This document shows positions 13,502 to 33,000 of a DNA stretch of 64,000 bases, in pieces. Below the pieces are notes generated by a model, which was not told the origin of the DNA, made no database searches, and worked only from the letters and a program-made list of their open reading frames with translations. Both the position numbers and the translations under genes were made by a program. Location: positions 44,130,101 to 44,194,100 of the forward strand of contig CM069872.1 of NCBI GenBank assembly GCA_036172665.1, given 5' to 3'. This DNA is from Prosopocoilus inquinatus (Eukaryota > Arthropoda > Insecta > Coleoptera > Lucanidae). Numbering within the stretch: position 1 is the stretch's first letter; each line of letters starts with the position of its first letter.

Positions 13502-13834
13502 TGTGGCGAGCCACTCAGCAGTACGTCAAACTGAAGTCGTCAAGAAGTCGGTTCGCTGTTATGCGTCATCGGCCGTCACGCCACCGGGGCCTACATCGAA
13601 CAGACTAGACTTTTCCAGCGTGAAGAATTCGAGACGGCAGCAAAGGATATAAAATCGGCCGAAGTTGACTCACCAGTCAGTCGAATTCGAAATAGCGATC
13701 GTCGAAGTTAGATGTAGTGTGTAAATAAATTGTTACAAATAAATTAGATTGTAAGCATTAATAAATTACGGTTAAGTTTTTACAGAGTGTTTTGTTCGTT
13801 TAAATAAATAAATTTAAACCCAAGAAACGTAACA
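13502..13834 (+). mobile_element. solo LTR of a Gypsy family related to the full element at 25-31 kb
   Basis: 333 bp, starts TGTGGCGAGCC and ends AAACGTAACA, flanked on both sides by CTAT (13498-13501 and 13835-13838), a 4-bp target duplication. It aligns along its whole length, in opposite orientation and with clear divergence, to the 316-bp LTRs at 25069 and 31253. It conserves TATAAAA about 30 bp before the initiator TCAGTC. No internal sequence follows, so it is the product of LTR-LTR recombination. Confidence 0.88.
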
Positions 13835-18000: not shown

Positions 18001-21000
18001 CAAGAAAAACTCGAATTAGTTTAAATTTGAATTTTTAAATTTAGATATATACTTGCTGAGAAAATGAAGTTGAAAGATCGCTCGGAGAATCCCCTGGTTC
18101 CATTCTCGTTAACGGCAGCCACCCTAAAGTGGTACCACCTGCCGGGCTTCACCACGTGTTTTATGCTGGGCTTGTTCGTTCTTAAGCAGGCTGTCCACTC
18201 GCTCATTCGCTCATCGATGAGATGTTTTCCGGTGTAATGGCGTTCTTCTATAACATACAGGACGTTTCCGTTTGAAATGTACTCCCCGGGTTTCCACTCG
18301 ATCACCACCGATTTTTTCCGCCTCCTTTCTTTGACAGTCACATCAGTGGGTATGGGCGGTATACCTATACCAAATTGCACAATCAAAAGTTGCCATAATG
18401 CAGACTTAATTAAATGGAAAGTCGTGGAAGAGGATTACTTAAATTAAATCAGTTCCATTAAAATTATATGTAAGTAGCAAGTAATTAACTTTCGTAGCGA
18501 AATGCATAAAGATGTAATAAGAACTAAAGAATTAGAAAGTGTAGAATACACTTTTTTATTTTTTATTAGAATAAAGATTTTAATTAATAATTAATTTATG
18601 TAAATTTTATTTGCATACAAAAAAACCGAAATCAATTAAACTTGAGGCGCAGAAATTCGTTACTTTGTATAAGCATTTATTTTATCTTTTAATTGAAATA
18701 ATGAATACGTTCACTAGAATCTCATTTTTTAATACTTAAAAAAATAATCAAAAAACTGCATTATTTAGACGTAGGTACCTAAATAGAATTTTTTTTTTAA
18801 TTTTACTTTTATAAACTTAGGAATAGTTTTTCCCCTGATTCTCGTGGTTCCAATATTTTGCCTTGCGATTTTGAAAACAAGAAGTTAAAAGAACAATTCT
18901 TTAAAACGATCTACCTCCATAAAAGTGACCTTTCAGAAAAGGCTTGCTCCTTCGAATTTGTCAGATGGCAACAATAATGGTATGGGGTCGAGGTATCACT
19001 CTCAATCTACTTCAAGAATTTTAGTTTAAGAAAAATTACACAGGGTTCCCCATATTAGACTAATTACACTAGGTATCCAATTTGATGTATGATTTAAATC
19101 CAAACGAAGTGTGTGATTCTTTTCTCATTAATAGGTCATGTTGAGTAGGTTTCCAAATTACATTTTATCGATTAGGCACCCCTGTCATATAACCGAGTCA
19201 GTATCATAAACAGTAGTTTTACAAATTGTGACAAATTTGTAATATTTTGCAATCGTATGGATTATTCAGTGTGTTTTTCGTGGAAATTTACGTTATTTAG
19301 AACTCGTTCAGTAGAAGGAGTTCGGCCACCGAGATCCCCCGACCTAACAACACCTGATTATCTTCTGAGGGTTACTTGAAGTGAAAGATCTTTGCAAATC
19401 ATCCTGCAACAGTTGAGGAATTAAAAGACCTCATTTGAGATGAAACCACAGATGGAGATTTGTTTCGCCGGGTGATGCATAATTTTACATTCGAAATTGA
19501 AGGTTGTGGCAACTCGATGGAGATCATTCAGAAAATGCTTTTTTTAAATTAAATTGAAAATCCAGCATTAGCGTAATAAAATATTTTTCTCCTCGCCTTA
19601 GAAGGATTTAATTCAAATAATAAAATGGGTGCTTAATATGGGGAACCCTGTATATGTACACAGCAATGGCAAACATGAAAATATTACAAAAAACTAGAGG
19701 ATGATGTAGTAAAGGAAGTAAAATGGTGGAGGGTCAAATAGCTAGGGAAATGCACTAAAAACAACAGGACCAACTGATCTTATAATGAAAAAGGCATCAG
19801 TAACGAAGAGAGGAAATGAAAAGCCAAAGTTAAGAGGGCTAGTTGAAGTAAGAGAAGACCTAAGAACTATAGGAACTGTAGGCGTGGTCCAGAATACGAA
19901 TACGAATACGAAATTATGGACCAAGATTAGCAGTTGGATAAAACATGAATGAGGACCACTTTCCTAAAAAATTGAACTGCATCCACAAAGCTTCATAAGA
20001 GGTGCAATCCCTTAAGCATTAAGCCGTACATACATACATAAAGTTAAAGAATGTGATGTAATAAAATATATATATAATTCTGGAAAATAATTTTCAAAAC
20101 TGAGTTTTGAAACTGAAACATACATTAATTTCTTTTCTCATAACTCATCCGCTTTTTGCACGCCTCCGGTGTTCATATTTTCACTTTTCACTTTCGCCTT
20201 GCTTTTCCCCTACTTGTTCCTGTCTCTTTTATACCTTCCCTTGGACTGTCCTTAATAACTAAAAAACTACTTTGAGTTGGGTATAGGGAACCCTTATTAA
20301 AATTACTGTAAAATAACCGTAGTAACTCAAATACTTTATAAAATGTAGGGCGTTCCATTAAAATAACGAAGTTCCACATCGTATAGACAGACAAGTTGGG
20401 ACTCCCTGTATACGTATATCAAATTTGAAGTATGCGGAGCTTGAGAAGATTAAACTTATAAGACGTTTTTTCATATATTCAACAGGAACAGCGCCATTGA
20501 AGAAACCTCGTTGGATGACACACCTAGTATATATTTTCTGGTATAATATTTTCAAAAATATATTATTTAAAATTTTCTCTTTTCTTTTATTTATATATTT
20601 TTTATATAATATCCGAAACATTTGCTTATTTTAATGTACTTCATTGGGGTACTGTCTCTAACAGAAATTTTTTATGGCAAAGTGATCAAAAAGTTGATCA
20701 GACCCACAATTCTGGTTTGTGACAAATTTTCTCTTGCTTTATTAATGGTTGTTGCAGGAAAAGTTATCTACTACATATTTTATAACTGTGAATCCCCTAA
20801 TTGTTTGCTGCAATCTCGATTTACAATGTTACTTGCATGTGGTTGCATGAACATTTGTTGTGTTGATAGCAGAGTGAGGTATAAAATCGGAAAGGTTTCG
20901 TGCTTCTTTCCTTGTAAAATCGACTTCTTTGCCTATGATGAACTATTGATCAAATCAGATGATTTTAATTTATGATTATGTGGCATTTCGATATGGCAAG

Positions 21001-24000
21001 TGATGTAGAAGATGATTTAGTAAATTAAAGTAAGATACTTTCTTGTCTGATGAAAACTATTATAAAATATTATTAATAATATTTTGAAAAGTCTTCAGCT
21101 GCAGTTTGTTAATTTTTTATTTTCTTTCTAGACCAGTTTTGCAAAAGTCCATCGTCAGTAGAAATATATAGGTATAATATAATTTTATCCTTTAGATTAA
21201 TGTGTGCAGTATTTGGAAAAAAAATGCATATACTATACATGTTAATCTAGAGGATAAAGTTATATTATATTTCTTCTGACGATGCACTTTTGCGAAACCG
21301 GTCTAAAAAGAAAATAAAAAATTAACCAATTGCAGTTGAAGACTTTTCAAAGTATTATTATTTACTAATAACTGCAGTTATCATGGACAGCATGTTTAAT
21401 GAAATATTATAATTATTTTTGCACGGACACTTGGCAAATTGAGTTTAAAGTCAACGTTTCGCTATACTATATTTGACGCTTCTTATCGCTTTCCTGAAGA
21501 AGCTGTCAAATACACGGCGAAACGTCGACTTTTGACTAAATTTTTCGAAGTGCCGTCGTGGAAATTTACACAGAACAAAAAGAAAACAATAGGGTACAAT
21601 TGTACCCCACGCGGCCTTTAATGTTAATTTTGAAACCCGGCCTTATGAAGGTTAATAAAAAAGCGAATGATGAAATATTCAAGGAATGCAGTTTAGTATC
21701 TATGTAGGTACAAGAACTTAATTATAAAGGCCGTTTTATACCACCCTGTTCGGTTAAATATCTTAAGCAATTTAATTTGTGCAGTAAACTGATTTAAATC
21801 GAATTAAAAACTATCTGAAAAAAGAATATATTCGTTTTATCCTTAAACCGTAACTGCATTTCAAAAATCACTAAAAATCACTTGTGCAGATTTATTTTTA
21901 TTGAATCAAATATTGTACAAGAAATAGAATAGCTTAATTCATTTGATTAGACATTTTTTGCATATAAAATTGTTTCTGAGAAGTGGTGAAACAATTGAAG
22001 TTTGATTTGTAACAAAATTCTACGAGGAATTCCCCGTTTGCAGAACGATTTTTAAAGTGGTGGGAAACGAAACGTTACGGTTTAATTTGTAGTTCACGAG
22101 AAGGAAAAAATATTCAAGGATATCGATTGGAAATAAAAAAAAAGGAAAATAACTGGCTGACATGAGGCAACGAACTACTAAGAAAATAATACGGTAAATC
22201 GTTTTCAAATCAAATTGAAAACCACAGAGGAGGCAAAATAATTCAGCGCAAATTATAGGGCGCAAGAGCAATTTGAGACCGCAGATGATGATTCGGGACA
22301 TTATCATATCCGTACGTAATTCAGCGTTGTTAAACCACTTTGTTAACGTCTCGTTACGTATTGAGATGTTAATAATTCGCAATTCTTGGTGGTCCTGTTT
22401 GAATGCGGCGAGGAGGCCGGCCATAAAAACTGGGTCATTATTTTGATATCTAAACCAGTTCCGATGGGTTGTTTAAAATCAATCAGTTACACTCCGCAGT
22501 GGCGGGATGGCATTTTTGCCGAATATCGATCCTTATTAAGACATATTCGCTTTCGACGTTATCAAGATTGATTTGGCATCGGTTATGCGAAAGTACGTTA
22601 CATTTTACAATAAATTACTTATCTGATGTTAAAACGAAAAAAAAAAAAACAAATAAATGGAAACAGTACGTGCACGTTTTATCCAAAAGATTCCACCACA
22701 TATTGAATACAAACAATCCACTTGGTCTGATAACCTTGCAACGTCGAAACAAGAACACAATTCAAATACAATTAAGAATAAAGAAAATAGAAGAAGACTT
22801 TGAACTTATCCAGGTAATTTCACTACTTAAATCAATTCAAAATAATTTCGATTACAAATATGGTTTCGATTTGTCTGACTACTGCAGAGTCTGACTAATC
22901 TTAAATCGTCGGATTCTGACGGCTCCAGAGTTCACCTAAAGTTCACGAGTTGGCAAAGCCAAAGGGCCGAAGACATGATTGATAATAAAAGTGATGTTAT
23001 TTTAAAAAATCGTGAAATAATAAAAAACAGCATTCATTTAAAACAATTTGAAGAACACTTAACCAAAGAAGAAATTTAAAAAGTACAGAAATCCATAACT
23101 GATAAACTTGATAATATGACGCGACAAATTCTTAATTCAAGAAATGTTATAGCAATCGAGGAAGACAAACATGATTCAATGAATGCAGATCTAAGCGATC
23201 CGGATCGCTTGTTACAATTACCAATGTCCAAAAAGGTAGAATACAGATCACATTCGCCTTCAACACAAATGAAATCACCTTCATCAACTTTGACTAGTGC
23301 TCCGCATAACTCGATAAGTGTAAATCCAGATAAAGATTTAAATTTTGATATTATTGGAAAAACAATTTAAATAGGAAAAACCTTCACATTTATTATCGTC
23401 AAATATAAGAAATACGAATGCAAAAATTGATACAACGATACCCGAAGTAGTAATCGTTGAACGCGTACATTACAAAAGCAAAGTGAACACAAGAAAAAGA
23501 AAAAAAAAATGAAAATTTACACTATTTACAGTATGTTTATTCATAGTTAAGGAAATACAAAAGTGGGTTAGAAGATATTCGAAAAATTCCTTTCTACGAA
23601 AAGTCTCCTGAACACGGAGAGACAGGAAAACCCGAACTAGTAATCGTTGAACGCATACATTACAAAAGCAAAGTGAACACAAGAAACAGAAAAAAAAATT
23701 ATAATTTACAGTATGTTTATGCATAGTTAAGGAAATATAAAAGTATATTAGAAGATATTCGAAAAATTCCTTTCTAAGAAAAATCTCCTGAACAGGGAGA
23801 AACAGGAAGTGGTATTTAGACTTTATCCCTGGACTGAGTTGATCAATGTTAGACGTATGCAAATAAAATTATGACATTTGATAAGAATTTCCATAATGAT
23901 GTTAGTAATCAGTATGTAATGAAAAAGTAAGAGGAGATGTGTCTTAAGTTACTAAGAAAAATCAGATTTCGAAACAATCTATGTATTGGGCATATGTTTC

Positions 24001-27000
24001 GGCCTCAGTAGAAGGCCATCTTCAACACGCGGAAGACTACAATTATTAACAATTAACAGCAAGTTATGAACAATTCGAATTATAATGTTACGTACCTTAA
24101 CCAAAGTGGGTAAGTTAAATAGATTGCACACAAGATACAAACAAAATAAGCCCTAAAAATTCTGCCAGTTAAGGTTCCTAAGGAACTGCTCCTGAGGTCC
24201 ATCCAACATCCAACTGATCGTTGAGAACGTTAAAAAGTTTTTATTATTTTCATGTAAAAATATTTCTAAGTTTTCATCAATATAAAACAGGTTAAAGTTA
24301 TGGAGAGACTTGATTGGAATCTAAATCATGGGAAAAGAAAATAGAGTGATTGGCGAAATTAGAGTCAGACTTCTCAAATTTGAAGGATCTAAAGGATCTA
24401 ATACGTTCCTTAATACGTGTTCTTATGTTTCTACCTGTTTATCCTATGTAAATGGAGTTACGGGAGTTACAGGAGAAAAAGTAAACACCACTCCGTTCTA
24501 AAGGATTGGTTTTTTTTTTATCTTTAGTGTGGGTATCATAATTTTTAAGTTTTTTTTTATTGGAGAATGAAGTTTTTAAATTAGTTTTACTGGTATTTTT
24601 AGGGAAGTAATCTTTAATTTTTTTAGAAAAGTAGGATATACAGGGTAGCCTGTGTGGGCGTGTCTTGTGAAGTGTCAGTATTGTTAAGTCTTATTAAGTA
24701 CTTTATTTTTAATTCTGAAAAATAGGTTTTTGATTATGGATAGAGAGAAAAATCCTTATTGTAGGCAATTTATAGTATGGTGTAATTCTTGTTAGAAATC
24801 TGTTTGACTCATTGGGATAAGGAAGGAACCCTTTTCTAAAGGGTGTTTGGAATTGTAAGGTGCCTATACAAGTCTGTATGAGTTGGTTTCCTGAATATTT
24901 TATAAGACAGAGATAGAAGATGTTTGGTAATAGTAATGTAGAGAATGTTAATAGAGTTATTAATCTAAAATAAATAATATTATGATACGCAGTTTGAAAA
25001 TATTAAAATTATTAGGCGTTTAATACTGGGATATCCTGCATGCAACGTATGCAACTATTTATACATACTGTTACGTTTCTAGGGTTTGAGTTTATTTATT
25101 TTCACGAATAAAACACTCGATAAAAACTTAACCGTAATTTAATGAAGCTTAAAAACTAATTTATTTATTACAATTTATTTTCACACTAAAATCTAACTTC
25201 GACTATCGCTGCTCGAATTCGACTGACTGGTGAGTCAACTCCGGGCCATTTTATATCATTTGCTGGCGTCTGGAAGTCTCTATTCGGGAAGATTCCAGTC
25301 TGTTCGATGTGGGCTCCGGCCGATGACACATCGAAGCGGACCGACTTCTTGACGCCTTGCGCTAAGTCAGGTTGGCTCGCCACACTGCCCCCTTCTTAGA
25401 AACGTTTCGTCTCGAAATGTTCCTGGTGATAGTCTTGAAGGAGGGTGTCGGAATCTACATGCTGGCCCATTCTTGCAACTTCCCGCCTGGAAGAAGTAAC
25501 AGTCCACGGTTTTGCTGTTGCTGACTGTTGCCTGTGGGTGGTGGCTGCAGACTAGGACTTCAATTCCCGTTCTGTGGAAGATGACTTCCAGCATGCTTCG
25601 AATTACTCTCCAGTCTAGTCCGTCCAATCCGCAGCCCAATTTGGGGATGGCTAACTTCATCTGATGGGTCTCTATTAGCTGTCTCCTCAGGCTATATAGG
25701 GCTCTCCACATACTTTGATAGTCAGGTTTACCGCTTGATGTCTTCTTAGTGACTAAATAATGCACGTGGCGCCTCCGATCTGCCGTCGAATCAATGATCT
25801 GCAAGCTCTTGCCTACCACGGGATGCTGTCTTCGTAGCTCCTCGATTTGGCCAAATTTCTTCTTAAACACCTGAGCGATTCCTTTGGACATTTTCAGGTC
25901 TTCTGCTACGCAGTGGGCCAGACTGTACTCCAGTGGCACTTTAAAGAGATCTTGTTGCTTCTCCGTGGTCACTCCAAACCGTGCCTTGCTTCCTTCGGCG
26001 TGATGAGACATGAAGGTTTCGAAGTTCACTTCGGAAACTTGCGCCATTTGTACTGTCCCTTCATCTGCTTCTCCATGGTAAGGGGCTATCCGGTTGAAGT
26101 GGATTACTTTGGGTTTGCCATGGGGGACCTTCCTGATGCGGTAAACGACGTCGTTGATCCGTTTCATCACTTTGTAAGGACCTTCCCAAGAGGTCTGTAA
26201 TTTTGGGGAGAGGCCTCGACGTCTTTGGGGGTTATAAAGCCAGACCAGTGCTCCAGGGTGGTATCCCCCGTGTTGAGCGTTGATGTCATAGTGCTCCTTC
26301 ATCCGATCGCTGGCCGTCTGTATATTGTGACGCACTTGGTTGTGGATATCATCCTTTTTCCTGCGTAATTTGCTCACGTAATCTTCGTCGGCAGAGACTT
26401 CGCCAGGCTTCACACCAAACTTCAGGTCGCAGGGCAGTCTCGGCTCTCGCCCGAATACCACTTTCGCGGGAGTCTCCCCTGTTGTCTCATGAACAGATGA
26501 GCGGTATGCCATTAGAAACAGGGGGATGTACGTGTCCCAGTCCCTCTGATGATTGGAAACGACCTTGGACAAATGTCGGTTGATGGTTCTATTGAACCTT
26601 TCCACCATTCCGTCCGACTGTGGGTGGAGTGCAGTTGTTCTAGTTTTTCGTACGCCGAGCAGAGTACACACGTTCTTGAACAAGGCCGATTCAAAGTTCC
26701 TTCCTTGGTCTGAATGCAGTTCCATAGGTGCACCATACCGACTGATCCATTCCCTGACAAGGACTTCCGCAATAGTGACTGCCTCTTGGTTAGGTAGGGC
26801 GTAAGCTTCAACCCACTTGCTAAAGTAGTCCATTACCACGACGATGTACTTGTTTCCACCATTCGTTTCTGGAAACGGGCCGGCTACATCGATGGCAACT
26901 CTCTCAAAAGGACTTCCAACGTTGTACTGTCTCATGGGAGCCTTACCCCGCCTGTGGGGACCGTTACTGGCTGCGCAGACTGCACATTTTCTGCACCAAT

Positions 27001-30000
27001 CCTTTACGTCTTCCTTGCAGTTCACCCAGTAAAATCTTTCGCGCACCTTCTCCATAGTCTTCTTAACTCCCAGATGCCCTCCCGAAGTTCCATCGTGAAG
27101 TTCCCTCAGAACTTCTGGCACCCTATTCTTGGGGATCAGTAACTGTGTCTTCTGTTCCATGCCTTCCTGATTCTCTATGCTTCGTCTCAGAAGACCACGA
27201 TCCAACACTATGGAGTCCCACTGCGCCCAGTATGACTTTACGGACGGTGCACATGGTGCTACCTCTTCCCAGGTAGGCCTCGCGTCCCTGCTTTTCCACT
27301 CTAGCACTAATTTCAAATCCGGGTCGTTCTCCTGGTCTCTTCGCAGTTCTTCGGCTTGCCATTTGTCGTCAACAATGGCTGTCCTCGCAGTCGTGGCTAC
27401 TTTCTCGTCCAAACGACTACAGTGCTTACAGTCTTCGGCACAGGGTCTTCTCGACAGAGCATCGGCATTTCGATGGCTAGTTCCTGCCCGATGCTGAATT
27501 TCAAAATCGTACTCCTGAAGTCGTTCGATCCATCGTGCAACTTGCCCTTCTGGGTTCTTGAAACGGAGAAGCCATTTTAGAGCGGCGTGGTCGGTCCTCA
27601 GCAGGAAGCGTCTACCATACAAGTACTTGTAGAAGTGTTCTATCGTTTTTACGACGGCTAGCAATTCCCTTCTTGTGACGCAATAGTTTCGTTCCGGCTT
27701 TGATAGGACCTTACTGAAGTAGCCGATCACCTTCTCTTGCCCCTCTTGTATCTGGGAGAGTACGCCACCAATCCCAACGTTGCTAGCATCTGTGTCCACG
27801 ACGAACTTGCCTTCCAGGAGAGGATAACTCAGAATAGGAGCACTAACCAAGTACTGCTTTAGTTGTTCAAAGCCAATTTGACACTGTTGGTCCCATTCAA
27901 ATGGACGACCTTCTTCAGTGAGTTTTGTCAACGGCTTAGCAATGTCTGCAAATCCAGGAACGTAGCGCCGATAGTAAGTGCACAGGCCAAGGAAACTCCT
28001 TATTTGGTGTTTATTTCTGGGAGTTGGCCAGTCTTTCACCACCTGAATCTTCACAGGGTCCACGGCGATTCCATTTCCATTAACAATGTGCCCCAGGTAA
28101 TTCACTTCCTTCTGGAACAGGTGACACTTCTTGAGGCTAAGCTTTAGTCCAGCTCCGCGAAGCCGCTGGAACACTCCTTCCAGGTTCCTTAGGTGGTCGT
28201 CGAACGTCTTTCCCACGACAATTATGTCGTCAAGGTACACCATGCACGTTGTCCAGGACAGACCTTTCAGAACTGTCTCCATTAACCTCTCGAATGTCGC
28301 TGGGGCATTACATAATCCGAATGGCATCACTGTGAACTGCCACAGACCCATACCAATGGAAAACGCCGTCTTTTCTCGATCTTCGGGCGCCAGCTCCACT
28401 TGCCAATATCCACTCTTTAAGTCCAAAGTTGAGAAGATCTTTGAGCCGGCCAGGGTGTCCAGGGTATCATCAATCCGTGGCAGGGGATAGCTGTCCTTCT
28501 TGGTGACATTGTTGAGTAACCGGTAGTCTACACAGAATCTGGTGGACCCATCCTTCTTCTTCACAAGCACTACTGGTGACGCCCACGGGCTGCTTGATGG
28601 TTCTATCACATTATCCTTTTCCATCTCGCGAATAATGCGTTCCGCTTCCTCACGCTTTGCCAACGGTAATCGCCTTGGAGCTTGACGGATAGGTCTTTCT
28701 TCTCCAGTCTCTATTTTGTGTTTCACGACATCAGTTCTTCCCTTGGATCCATCTTCTACCTCGAATACATCTTGATAACGGCCGATCAAATTCTTTGCTT
28801 TTGTCTTCTGGTCTGGAGTCAATTCCTGGGCTGTTGACATAACCATTTCCCATAATTTCTTTGGGACTTTCGCTTCTGGCACGTTTGTTTCAAGTTGCCG
28901 GGAGATGGAGGACACCATGGTGCAGCTTCCCAAGATTGTTCCTTTCTTGATATTGACAGAGAAACAATTGACGTTCATCAGGCGGACAGGTACTTCCTTC
29001 TTCGCCGTCAACAACATTTTCCCAACGAGGACTCCTCTTCCAATCCTTTGATCATCAGTATTAGGTTCAACCATAATGACTTGCCCATCTTGAAAAACAC
29101 CGTCCAGTTTTGCGTCGACGATAACCTCAGTCCTGCTGGGTAATACAACGTCTTCAGCGAGGACTACTCGAGCGGCCACGTCCCCTCGTTGATGTAGAAC
29201 CAACTCCTCATTATTGACCGCCATCACGCCACGCTTTAAGTCCAATTGGAACCCGTGGGCACACATGACGTCCATGCCCAAAATTGCCTCGTCCTCTATA
29301 TCTGCCACCAGTGCACGGTGTTTAATTGGAGTTGAACCAATGGTGATGATAACCTCTACTTCACCGTGGACAGTTGCTGATGTTCCAGTTGCAGTTTTCA
29401 GTCTCCACTTGGTCGGCTCGGTGCGTCCAGATGACTTAATGACGTCGGGTCTTAGGATGGTCTTCGTCGCACCCGTATCCAACAACATGGTGTGAGGAAT
29501 GTCATCAATGGTGACATCCACGAAGACACTGCTGGTTAACTGCCGTAGGAATATTACTTGGTTGGCTTTCGTCTTTGGGGGCCTTTGAATACGGGTCGAC
29601 GTTTGCCCCTCTGCACCGACCCGGCTTAGTTTAACTGTGGCTTCCTTGGATCCTGTCTGGGCTTTGGACATCGCCTGCGAACATGTCCTTCCTCCTGGCA
29701 ATTCCAACAAACCAGCGGCCTCTTCTGCTTGAAGACCTGTTCCACAATGCGGCGAACATCCTCGGCGGTGGCATACTCCCTGGCTCGCTCCTTTATAGTA
29801 GATCCCACCTTGGCGTTAGCGGATTCTTCCTCTTCTTCCTCTTGGAAGTCCATAGCCGCTCGCACCTTGACATGCCCTCTTGAGACTCGTCTCGCTGCTT
29901 CAAATTCCAAGGCATAAGCTAATGCGTTCTTGGACGTCTTCGGATGGGTCATTCTCAATGCCTGCTGGTTGTCTGGGTCACGGATTCCATCTATGAAGGT

Positions 30001-33000
30001 CTGCACCGTCAAACATTTGAGGAATTCAACAGGAGCTGTGGGATATGCCAACTGGGCCAGACGCGCAACGTCTGCTTCGAATTCCTGAAGACTTTCTCCG
30101 GATTTCTGACAGCGATTCCTCAACTGCGCATGGTATACCTCGGTCAGATGGGCCTGTCCGTAACGCATTTCCATCCTATTCACCAGCTTGTCGAAGTCTT
30201 CTTGTTCCTCTGGCGGCATCGTCTGTAGCACATCGATAGCGTCCCCTCTCAAGGCCACAATTAACGAAGTGGCTTTTTCGCTGGCCGTCCATCTGTTCGC
30301 CTTTGCTGCTGCTTCGAACTGTTTGAAGTAATTGGGCCAAGAAGACTTTCCATCGAACGTTGGTGGTTTTACTTTCAGTTTAGAATTTTCTGCTGGTCCT
30401 TCCATAATTCGGGTTTCATTATTTTCTAGTACTTCTACTGGTGGCTGATCCCCGAACACTCGCAACCCCGCCATGATTTGTTCCAGATTTTTGATTTTGT
30501 TATCCTGCTGGAATATTATTTCTTCCACATTTTCTTGCAGGTTTCTTGTTTCTTCCGATATTTTTACCACTAGTTTATCTTCGAGTCCTTTCGTCTGTTC
30601 TAGAAATTCACCCTTCAAATTTCCGGACTGTTCTAGAAGTTTCTCGTCGAAATTTCTGGATTGCTCTAGAAATTTCTCGTCTAAGTCTCTAGATTGTTCC
30701 AACAATTTATTTTGTAATTTGTCGAAATTTCCAGATTGTTCTAGAAGCTTCTCCTCTAAATTTCTGGATTGTTCTTGAAGCTTCTGTAAATTTCCAGACT
30801 GTTCTTGAAACTTCTCGTCCAAATTTCTGGATTGTTCTCGAAGTTCGTCCTTGAAATTTCCAGATTGTTCTCGAAGTTCGTCCTTGAAATTTCCAGATTG
30901 TTCTAGAAGCTTTTGCTCTAAATTTCTGGATTGTTCTCGAAGTTCATCTTTCAGGATTTTATTAAAATCGGCGGGACCACACGAAATTTCGAAAAGGAAG
31001 GTCTCTGGATCTTCGCCAGCTGTCAACAAATCGGATCGGAGACGCTGTTGAAGTGCGCCTTTCAAACCACAGGTTTCTAATTCTCGTTCTTCCAATTCGG
31101 TTTTTAATTCGGCCACTTTTAAGTCTTTCAACAACACTTTTCTCGTAGCCATTGTTTTTTTTTTTCGATACTGTACTTATTTAATAATCTGATTAAATTT
31201 AATTTACTTTAAATTGTTTATTTATTTGCACAAACCCGCACACCGACACCACTGTTACGTTTCTAGGGTTTGAGTTTATTTATTTTCACGAATAAAACAC
31301 TCGATAAAAACTTAACCGTAATTTAATGAAGCTTAAAAACTAATTTATTTATTACAATTTATTTTCACACTAAAATCTAACTTCGACTATCGCTGCTCGA
31401 ATTCGACTGACTGGTGAGTCAACTCCGGGCCATTTTATATCATTTGCTGGCGTCTGGAAGTCTCTATTCGGGAAGATTCCAGTCTGTTCGATGTGGGCTC
31501 CGGCCGATGACACATCGAAGCGGACCGACTTCTTGACGCCTTGCGCTAAGTCAGGTTGGCTCGCCACAATACAATGGCGTGCGTGCGTTCTCAGCATTGT
31601 TCTTAGCGTTTCTTGTCGTTTTCTCTTGTTGGAGTCAGACTCAGCTCAGAATATGTACAGTCATGATCAAGCTAATCGAGACCGATTGACAGTTCTTACT
31701 ACCAGCGTTAATAAGGGCACAGTTAGCTTACAGCGGTCTCGATTAGGATGATCGCGTCTGTAGGTAAGTATTAAAATAATGAAATAATTTTAGAAAATTT
31801 TTTGTGCAAATCGTTTTTGATTGCAGTGAGAACCTCGAGCAGCCTCTGGACAGCTGTTTCAGCCCTGCATTGCGATGTAAGAATGATGAACATATAAAAT
31901 AGCGACATCTTACTATCGCTTTTTGCACACAATTTTTCTAAAATCTTTCATTATGCTTTAACAGCAAGCATGGCCGCCTTGCATGGGGGACTCATTAGGA
32001 GCAAATCCCGCTTGAATTTGTCTATCCTACTGCAATGTTAGGTCAAAAAGCGATAGTAAGATGTCGCTATTTTATATGGAAATAATTTTAGATAAAATGG
32101 ATATGAAAAAACTGATAAAGGATTTCCGTGAGTTCCAATGCGAACGAAAGAGAGTCAACTTAAAAGAGAGAAAGATGTTTCAGGAGTGCACAATTTTAAA
32201 GAAGCGAAAACCCAATTCAGTTGAACGTGACGGTTAAGATGCACCAACTATCACATCACGTTTAGAAGCCAAAATGGGAATATATTTTTTTGGGCTAGAA
32301 GATATAGATATACCAACGAAGAACTCGCAGCGAGTATAGTGACTATCATTTACAAAGGAGTAGAAAAAATCGCCTTAAAATTCCAAGATGTGGAAGAAAA
32401 AGAAAATTTTGTCGCGGTGTTAGAGCGATTCTTACAGTTTTGGTGATAAAGTACTGTGATTTTACTTTAACATGAAACATTGCTGTTCATGTTACTATAG
32501 AAACGAATTACATTTTTTTAAAATATCGTTGCATTATCGTCGTCGTTAAATTTGTCCATTTTAGTTTGGAACATCTATCAGGCGAAGAAAGTGAAAATCT
32601 TTGAAAACTTATTGCGTCGTTTGTTTTGAATTAAAGAATTTCTGTTTTTCTTGTGTTTTAAGTTCATTTATTTCAAACAAGTGTATACTTATCAAAGGCA
32701 AATGAAAGAGTCGGTGTTATTTTATTGTAGAAATATGTCGAAATCACTAATAACTAAGGCAAGGCGGAAATTCTTGATTGACTCCCACCACTTCTCTTCT
32801 GAAGCGCGGTATCGTGAACGGCATCTTTGCATTGTGTATTGCATTAAATTTTGTGGACGATACTGGAGTCCGATGAGTCAGTGAGGTGAGAGGTAAATCA
32901 ATTGCGTTTCCACCGAGTTATGCTAATAACAGAAGAGATTCATGACAGCTGTCATCTCGTGTTCAATTTTAAAAAAGTTGCTATGCTAAGGTTTCTCAGA

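Follow-up and report, generated by a model that had tools for sequence, protein, structure and literature searches.

Our analysis of a 64,000-nucleotide stretch of the genome of the lucanid beetle Prosopocoilus inquinatus (C4:44130101-44194100; hereafter the window) uncovered a Gypsy-type long terminal repeat (LTR) retrotransposon whose Pol carries, behind the integrase and in the same frame, a Macro domain of the TARG1/OARD1 type with the conserved catalytic pair of that family, for which ADP-ribosylhydrolase activity is predicted. Apparently new here is the presence of a TARG1-type Macro domain inside the Pol of beetle-type Gypsy elements, at two Pol positions.

Identity of the Macro domain and the adjoining zinc finger

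The Pol segment that follows the integrase matches human C6orf130/TARG1 with an E-value of 5.9e-29, and TARG1 is its top match both by sequence and by fold, nearer than other Macro classes; the identity amounts to 34-37% against the human structures and 40-42% against five fly rows. The general Pfam Macro model recovers the window copy at E 0.017, under its gathering score. Upon alignment, K1322 and D1363 of Pol fall on the catalytic pair of TARG1, K84 and an Asp which we take to be D125. The initial annotation of the window, made from the sequence alone, had claimed a TARG1/OARD1-type domain fused in frame behind the integrase of a Gypsy Pol, with the Lys and Asp of the family in place and a likeness to TARG1 structures to be expected; the sequence and fold matches, the domain order and the aligned residues all agree with it.

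Downstream of the Macro domain lies a CCCH zinc finger, which conforms to the pattern C-x7/8-C-x5-C-x3-H, scores over the cut-off of Pfam PF00642 (E 3.3e-5) and matches CPSF4 in the PDB (E 1.7e-8); its residues persist in the non-gap rows of the 132-row alignment described below (C1404 in 123/123, C1412 in 120/123, C1418 in 118/122 and H1422 in 115/118). The Pol frame then crosses the polypurine tract and ends at a stop codon formed by bases 16-18 of the 3' LTR; hence, the Macro domain belongs to the element and not to a neighboring gene. The RRGQC motif at this crossing is also present in the relatives P0042, P0110, P0175 and P0179. The finger, the entry of the Pol frame into the 3' LTR via the polypurine tract and the further Macro-bearing families described below go beyond the initial annotation.

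Macro-bearing Gypsy families in the same genome

A search of the P. inquinatus assembly (650 Mb, 173 contigs) with the Macro plus CCCH protein returned 1477 candidate places. The best 150 of these, a top slice rather than a random sample, are all 98-100% identical to the query over both domains and free of internal stops, and the neutral decay of all other copies that the initial annotation had contemplated is not seen among them. The scored copies of the window's family (family A; this and the other family names were given after the data were seen) are of two main sorts, with a Pol frame of ~1482 aa or a single frame of ~1870-1995 aa, besides shorter ones; the -1 relation between Gag and Pol in the window copy is thus replaced in many others by one long frame around the Macro domain. 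A Macro match also lies 1.9-2.7 kb upstream at 18 of the 19 best places that were found through RNase H and not through the Macro domain, a list of 150 rows that was cut, after inspection, at row 19, where other families start mixing.

The Pfam Macro profile gave 39 matches in the same genome, 24 of them within open frames of at least 900 aa; 19 element-like matches were fetched with their surroundings, ten of them again with different flanks. In family B (L063, L068, L069) the Macro domain stands after the integrase, as in family A, with the reverse transcriptase (RT) 63-65% identical to that of the window in L063 and L069; Pfam recognizes no CCCH finger in L063. Family C (L080, L081, L082, L088, L089; RT 51-55% identical to the window) carries the domain before RT, and in the 1914-aa frame of L080 Pfam places it between the protease and RT, while L088 and L089 are broken. 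The same protease-Macro-RT order is found by Pfam in family D (L084, L085; RT 56-57%), and L083 and L086 are protease-Macro frames in which RT was not detected. L080, L084 and L085 thus represent a second architecture, a single frame in which the Macro domain separates protease from RT, as if the domain were useful apart from fusion to the integrase. At a further Gypsy-type locus, L090 (RT 47%), no Macro domain was found at E 1 over 3.6 kb starting 870 nt before RT, a span in which the integrase went unmatched too.

Spread over beetles and conservation of the catalytic residues

A protein search with Pol residues 1238-1447, at an E-value limit of 1e-3, yielded 162 proteins. Among the best 120 of these 162, the longhorn beetles Aromia moschata and Molorchus minor contribute 94 and 15, respectively, one is from Callosobruchus maculatus, eight carry no organism, and one each is recorded as Klebsiella pneumoniae or Erysiphe pulchra (P0101 and P0106), the last two probably being insect contamination. 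Shorter pieces of the element occur in Pyrocoelia, Leptinotarsa, Gonioctena and Brassicogethes. This spread over beetle relatives contradicts the earlier suggestion that the domain might have been very recently acquired; a recent single acquisition was rejected. Apparent element pieces bear database names such as OARD1-like (Leptinotarsa, P0124) and Cleavage and polyadenylation specificity factor (Molorchus, P0061 and others); the element probably accounts for beetle proteins so named.

The 131 element Macro domains fall into 18 groups at 85% identity. In a redundant alignment of 132 rows, which includes host OARD1 rows, K1322 is present in 130/130 non-gap rows, D1363 in 131/132 and G1361 in 132/132. 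In the non-redundant set, from which the 18th group, an incomplete Leptinotarsa piece, was excluded, Lys and Asp are both kept in 17/17 family-A Macro domains, 16/16 of other element families of this genome and 31/31 OARD1-like rows, in line with the retention that the initial annotation had anticipated. Positions conserved in the OARD1-like rows tend to be conserved in the elements as well: 19 of 31 in family A, versus 9 of 101 elsewhere in the domain, and 17 of 31 in the other families, versus 14 of 101.

In IMG/VR, no relative was recovered with a single C-terminus as query or with alignments of RT and of the Macro domain. A scan of genome contigs gave 18 Gypsy-like loci in bacterial assemblies, several of them short, which were taken for contamination; tblastn found no Macro domain in them.

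Probable origin from an insect-type OARD1

A tree of 57 Macro rows unites 18 element domains in one clade (support 99/97), the nearest row being an aphid OARD1-like protein (91/50), and a further branch (99/96) places dipteran rows together with the element domains, to the exclusion of the vertebrate, crustacean and coral rows; a long-branched phage row that falls beside the elements is not trusted. With families B-E added (64 rows), the family-A clade stays (99/96), and a branch (97/92) separates 14 non-insect or unnamed rows from the insect rows and all element domains. Both trees were drawn from the midpoint. Because they group the element domains with insect rows, apart from non-insect ones, uptake from an insect-type OARD1 is supported by these sequence relationships.

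The trees appear compatible with one uptake as well as several. In the 64-row maximum-likelihood tree the element domains are unjoined, forming five lineages (A, B, C, C2/E and D); approximately unbiased tests reject neither a single all-element clade (p 0.212) nor a clade of the internal type (p 0.182) and are borderline for A plus B (p 0.048). In the RT tree, whose outgroups are solely 11 of the 18 contaminant contigs, A pairs with B as its sister (96/92), C and D stand apart, and a topology that unites all Macro-bearers in a single clade is borderline (p 0.038). No host OARD1 was recognized in the P. inquinatus genome among 150 scored of 1300 candidates, all full-length intronless matches, which leaves its presence or loss undecided, nor was a beetle host OARD1 found among the best 120 of 2742 proteins. 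A Macro-like gene at C2:52359025-52359543 is, by eye, presumably MACROD-like and not OARD1.

Selection on the Macro domain

The ratio of non-synonymous to synonymous substitution rates (dN/dS; NG86, the Nei-Gojobori method) over Macro codons is 0.135, 0.15 and 0.16 between family C subfamilies, at dS 1.2-1.3, and 0.178, 0.188 and 0.258 in a second internal group. The Macro domain is therefore under purifying selection between diverged subfamilies of the internal type (six pairs, 0.135-0.26). Among the other Macro pairs, six near-identical ones gave 0.19-0.80, from few changes, and two were saturated.

In the window's family, 29 copies compared with the window over Macro plus CCCH showed 17 non-synonymous and 16 synonymous single-base variants and no stops (pN/pS, the corresponding polymorphism ratio, 0.33). 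The integrase stretch, compared in 24 of the 29 copies after five were dropped for indels or dissimilarity, gave 0.40 (33 non-synonymous, 25 synonymous) with three stops. The comparison of dN/dS across copies that the initial annotation had called for thus speaks for constraint in the other families, while in the window's own family it reaches only near-identical copies. Since these copies are near-identical and biased in their choice, the evidence of purifying selection in family A comes from protein comparison between relatives and not from dN/dS.

A proposed role in countering host ADP-ribosylation

We propose, at a probability of roughly 0.55, that the domain acts as a TARG1-type enzyme erasing host-placed ADP-ribose from the proteins or the nucleic-acid ends of the element. 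Briefly, a Gypsy (Ty3/Metaviridae-type) lineage would have acquired an insect-type TARG1/OARD1 gene and long retained the domain at the end of Pol as a working ADP-ribosylhydrolase, coupled in the window's family to a CCCH finger of the RNA-binding type, which may hold the enzyme on element RNA. The Macro domain might travel in the particle or the preintegration complex, either fused to the integrase or freed by the element protease, and there hydrolyze ADP-ribose placed by PARP-type enzymes on Asp/Glu of Gag or integrase, or on RNA or cDNA ends. Its removal could then unblock reverse transcription, the cDNA ends or integration. The conserved Lys/Asp pair points to hydrolysis, and the internal position between protease and RT suggests that fusion to the integrase is not essential to the use of the domain. 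As described in the parts of PMC8501950 consulted, TARG1 removes Asp/Glu-linked mono- and poly-ADP-ribose as well as thymidine-linked and terminal-phosphate ADP-ribose, and its K84A mutant loses the rescue from DarT; the consulted parts of PMC7712786 report that mobile elements tend toward over-expression in Drosophila parp-1 mutants.

Several observations weigh against this proposal. In the same portion of PMC7712786, the eight significantly changed elements comprise five that go up and three that go down, five being LINE-like (long interspersed nuclear elements) and three of the Gypsy superfamily; of ten weaker up-regulated elements, nine are of the Gypsy superfamily and all fail the false-discovery-rate limit. 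The effect could be indirect, as its authors concede. The first G of the GCG loop varies in the 132-row alignment (A in 99, G in 18, S in 15 rows) and is not G in 7/17 non-redundant rows, so substrate or rate may differ in many relatives. RT, with dN/dS of 0.043 and 0.039 in family C pairs and 0.27 in a family D pair (two pairs being saturated), is more constrained than the Macro domain. In the window's family the Macro core alone has a pN/pS of 0.44 (12 non-synonymous, 8 synonymous), the DNA copies compared are all near-identical and do not reach useful divergence, and the choice of copies by protein score biases the Macro value downwards.

Some of these figures would also suit a domain captured from the host by chance and carried unused: the A-type Macro domains are only 48-78% identical pairwise, and so diverge faster than RT-RNase H, which is 77-83% identical to the window in eight relatives where this region is complete (75% in a ninth, partial one), and the core pN/pS is no lower than that of the integrase. 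Nevertheless, the retention of the catalytic residues, the low dN/dS in the other families, the Macro match at 18 of the 19 best places found through RNase H and the carriage of the domain by several beetle genera so disfavor an idle passenger that we reject it as highly improbable. Still more remote is an artefact in which a host OARD1 gene was joined to a transposon by misassembly or chimerism, which is refuted by the uniformity of the best 150 copies, the identical fusion in other species and the continuation of the frame across the polypurine tract as far as the LTR.

Two further alternatives grant the domain a use, and we consider each of them unlikely though deserving of attention. The Macro domain, with the finger, might be a reader or tether that recognizes chromatin or break sites marked by ADP-ribosylation and directs integration, hydrolysis being secondary. 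Other Macro domains act as readers, and the chromodomain is thought to steer integration in chromoviruses. It is the place of that chromodomain, to judge from the part of PMC3605345 consulted, that the family-A domain takes at the integrase C-terminus. However, L080, L084 and L085 carry it at a site remote from the integrase. Further, the catalytic Lys, which is dispensable for mere binding, is kept in 33/33 element Macro domains. Alternatively, in a narrower form of the hydrolase proposal, the substrate would be nucleic-acid ADP-ribose (on terminal phosphates of cDNA or RNA, or on thymidine), such that the LTR ends stay usable for the integrase and protein de-ADP-ribosylation is incidental. 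This would fit the best matches outside TARG1, which are to DarG, a DNA de-ADP-ribosylase, the adjoining finger of a nucleic-acid-binding type and the action of TARG1 on DNA (PMC8501950, in the portion cited above); yet TARG1 also works on proteins, and family B, as judged from L063, has no detected finger.

Returning to the enzyme that erases host-placed ADP-ribose, its occurrence in several Gypsy families at differing places suggests that ADP-ribose marks may be of consequence in the conflict of jumping genes with their hosts. More tentatively, and with the balance tilting somewhat against it, beetle Gypsy elements might have captured insect TARG1 on more than one occasion, at two sites of Pol (following the integrase and between protease and RT), and used it as an enzyme to oppose the ADP-ribosylation that the host places on their proteins or cDNA ends. 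If so, insects would use ADP-ribosylation as a pathway against retroelements, and TARG1 would be a recurring counter-defense domain, comparable to the retroviral dUTPase. In RNA viruses, Macro domains are under study for their opposition to the PARPs of the host; the TARG1-type domain retained in the Pol of abundant Gypsy elements, and present at two Pol positions within one genome, gives a direct handle on whether ADP-ribosylation restricts animal retroelements and which linkage matters.

Relationship to known systems

From cellular TARG1/OARD1/C6orf130, with which it shares the fold and the catalytic Lys and Asp, the element domain differs in that it belongs to the Pol of an LTR element, is followed by a CCCH finger and has an altered GCG loop in many relatives. 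The Macro domains of positive-strand RNA viruses, which have MacroD-like chemistry, are only 14-16% identical to it (VIA rows), and a likeness in function to these counter-ADP-ribosylation domains is suggested by analogy. The Macro domain of DarG belongs to a bacterial antitoxin and is 19-24% identical. A TARG1-like domain is also found in VP8 of Kadipiro virus, a virus from mosquitoes; VP8 is the first Foldseek match among viral models (42% identity) and is an RNA virus protein, not a Pol. The dUTPase of retroviral and some LTR-element Pols, found at differing sites such as between protease and RT, is likewise a captured host enzyme domain at varied Pol sites, though a different enzyme with a different substrate. 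Twelve phage records (Lactobacillus, Bacillus and Fusobacterium phages and others; L019, L020, L021) encode TARG1-like domains up to 38% identical.

Searches of one open-access library, mostly at the level of listings, turned up no Gypsy or other LTR retrotransposon described as carrying a Macro domain. The nearest precedent comes from ray-finned fish, for which Epsilon-like endogenous retroviruses with open reading frames (ORFs) for a Macro domain are described (Basta et al. 2009, through the consulted part of PMC4977317). These too are retroelements bearing a Macro-domain gene; however, to go by that citation, theirs are additional ORFs of vertebrate retroviruses, whereas the domains of the beetle-type Gypsy elements lie inside Pol. 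The latter domains are of the TARG1 type.

Anatomy of the element and its surroundings

The element lies on the minus strand and looks complete. A repeat search found 300 identical bases (25067-25366 = 31251-31550), from which reading of the ends gave LTRs bounded by TG...CA with GTAT on either flank (Table 1). Pol comprises a protease (PR), RT, RNase H (RH), an integrase (IN) with H2C2 and core domains and the integrase p58 C-terminal domain, followed by Macro and CCCH. This PR-RT-RH-IN order, together with the LTR ends, the target duplication, the primer-binding site and the polypurine tract as read, places the element in Ty3/Gypsy (Metaviridae). An errantivirus-like element with env was rejected: no env ORF lies between IN and the 3' LTR and, because Pol reaches into that LTR, no space remains for one. 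No tRNA was identified for the putative primer-binding site TGGTGTCGG, and reading by eye gave no clear slippery site in the Gag/Pol overlap. The Gag repeats (30584-30951) encode a repeated EQSRNLxEKL-like stretch with a coiled-coil look.

Table 1. Features of the Macro-bearing Gypsy element (window positions; aa, amino acids)
Feature	Position	Strand	Basis
Whole Gypsy-type LTR element	25069..31568	-	300-nt 100% direct repeat; ends extended by eye to TG...CA
5' LTR, 316 nt	31253..31568	-	repeat search and reading by eye
3' LTR, 316 nt, identical to 5' LTR; contains Pol stop codon	25069..25384	-	repeat search and reading by eye
Target-site duplication GTAT, 3' side	25065..25068	-	read from sequence
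Target-site duplication GTAT, 5' side	31569..31572	-	read from sequence
Putative primer-binding site TGGTGTCGG...	31235..31251	-	inferred from position and TGG start
Gag ORF, 508 aa: SAP domain, 33-nt repeats, CCHC knuckle	29626..31152	-	
Pol ORF, 1447 aa, in the -1 frame with respect to Gag; domain order PR-RT-RH-IN-Macro-CCCH	25367..29710	-	
Polypurine tract AAGAAGGGGGCAG, encodes RRGQ in Pol C-terminus	25385..25397	-	read from sequence
TARG1/OARD1-type Macro domain, Pol residues ~1248-1389	25544..25969	-	sequence and fold matches
Lys1322 codon (TARG1 K84 equivalent)	25745..25747	-	alignment
Asp1363 codon (presumed TARG1 D125 equivalent)	25622..25624	-	alignment
CCCH zinc finger, residues 1400-1424, C-x7-C-x5-C-x3-H, CPSF4-like	25439..25513	-	

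No second Macro copy was found within the window. An LTR-like piece at 13534-13834 is ~84-86% identical to the element LTR, in the opposite orientation. Elsewhere, an inverted repeat at 21074-21360, with 95-nt arms that are 91% complementary and 97 nt apart, is perhaps a small transposon; a decayed stretch at 24300-24500 (minus strand) resembles by eye a Penelope-type GIY-YIG endonuclease; and an ORF at 18021-18434 (minus strand), perhaps a host exon, matches fibronectin type III (E 1.2e-6).
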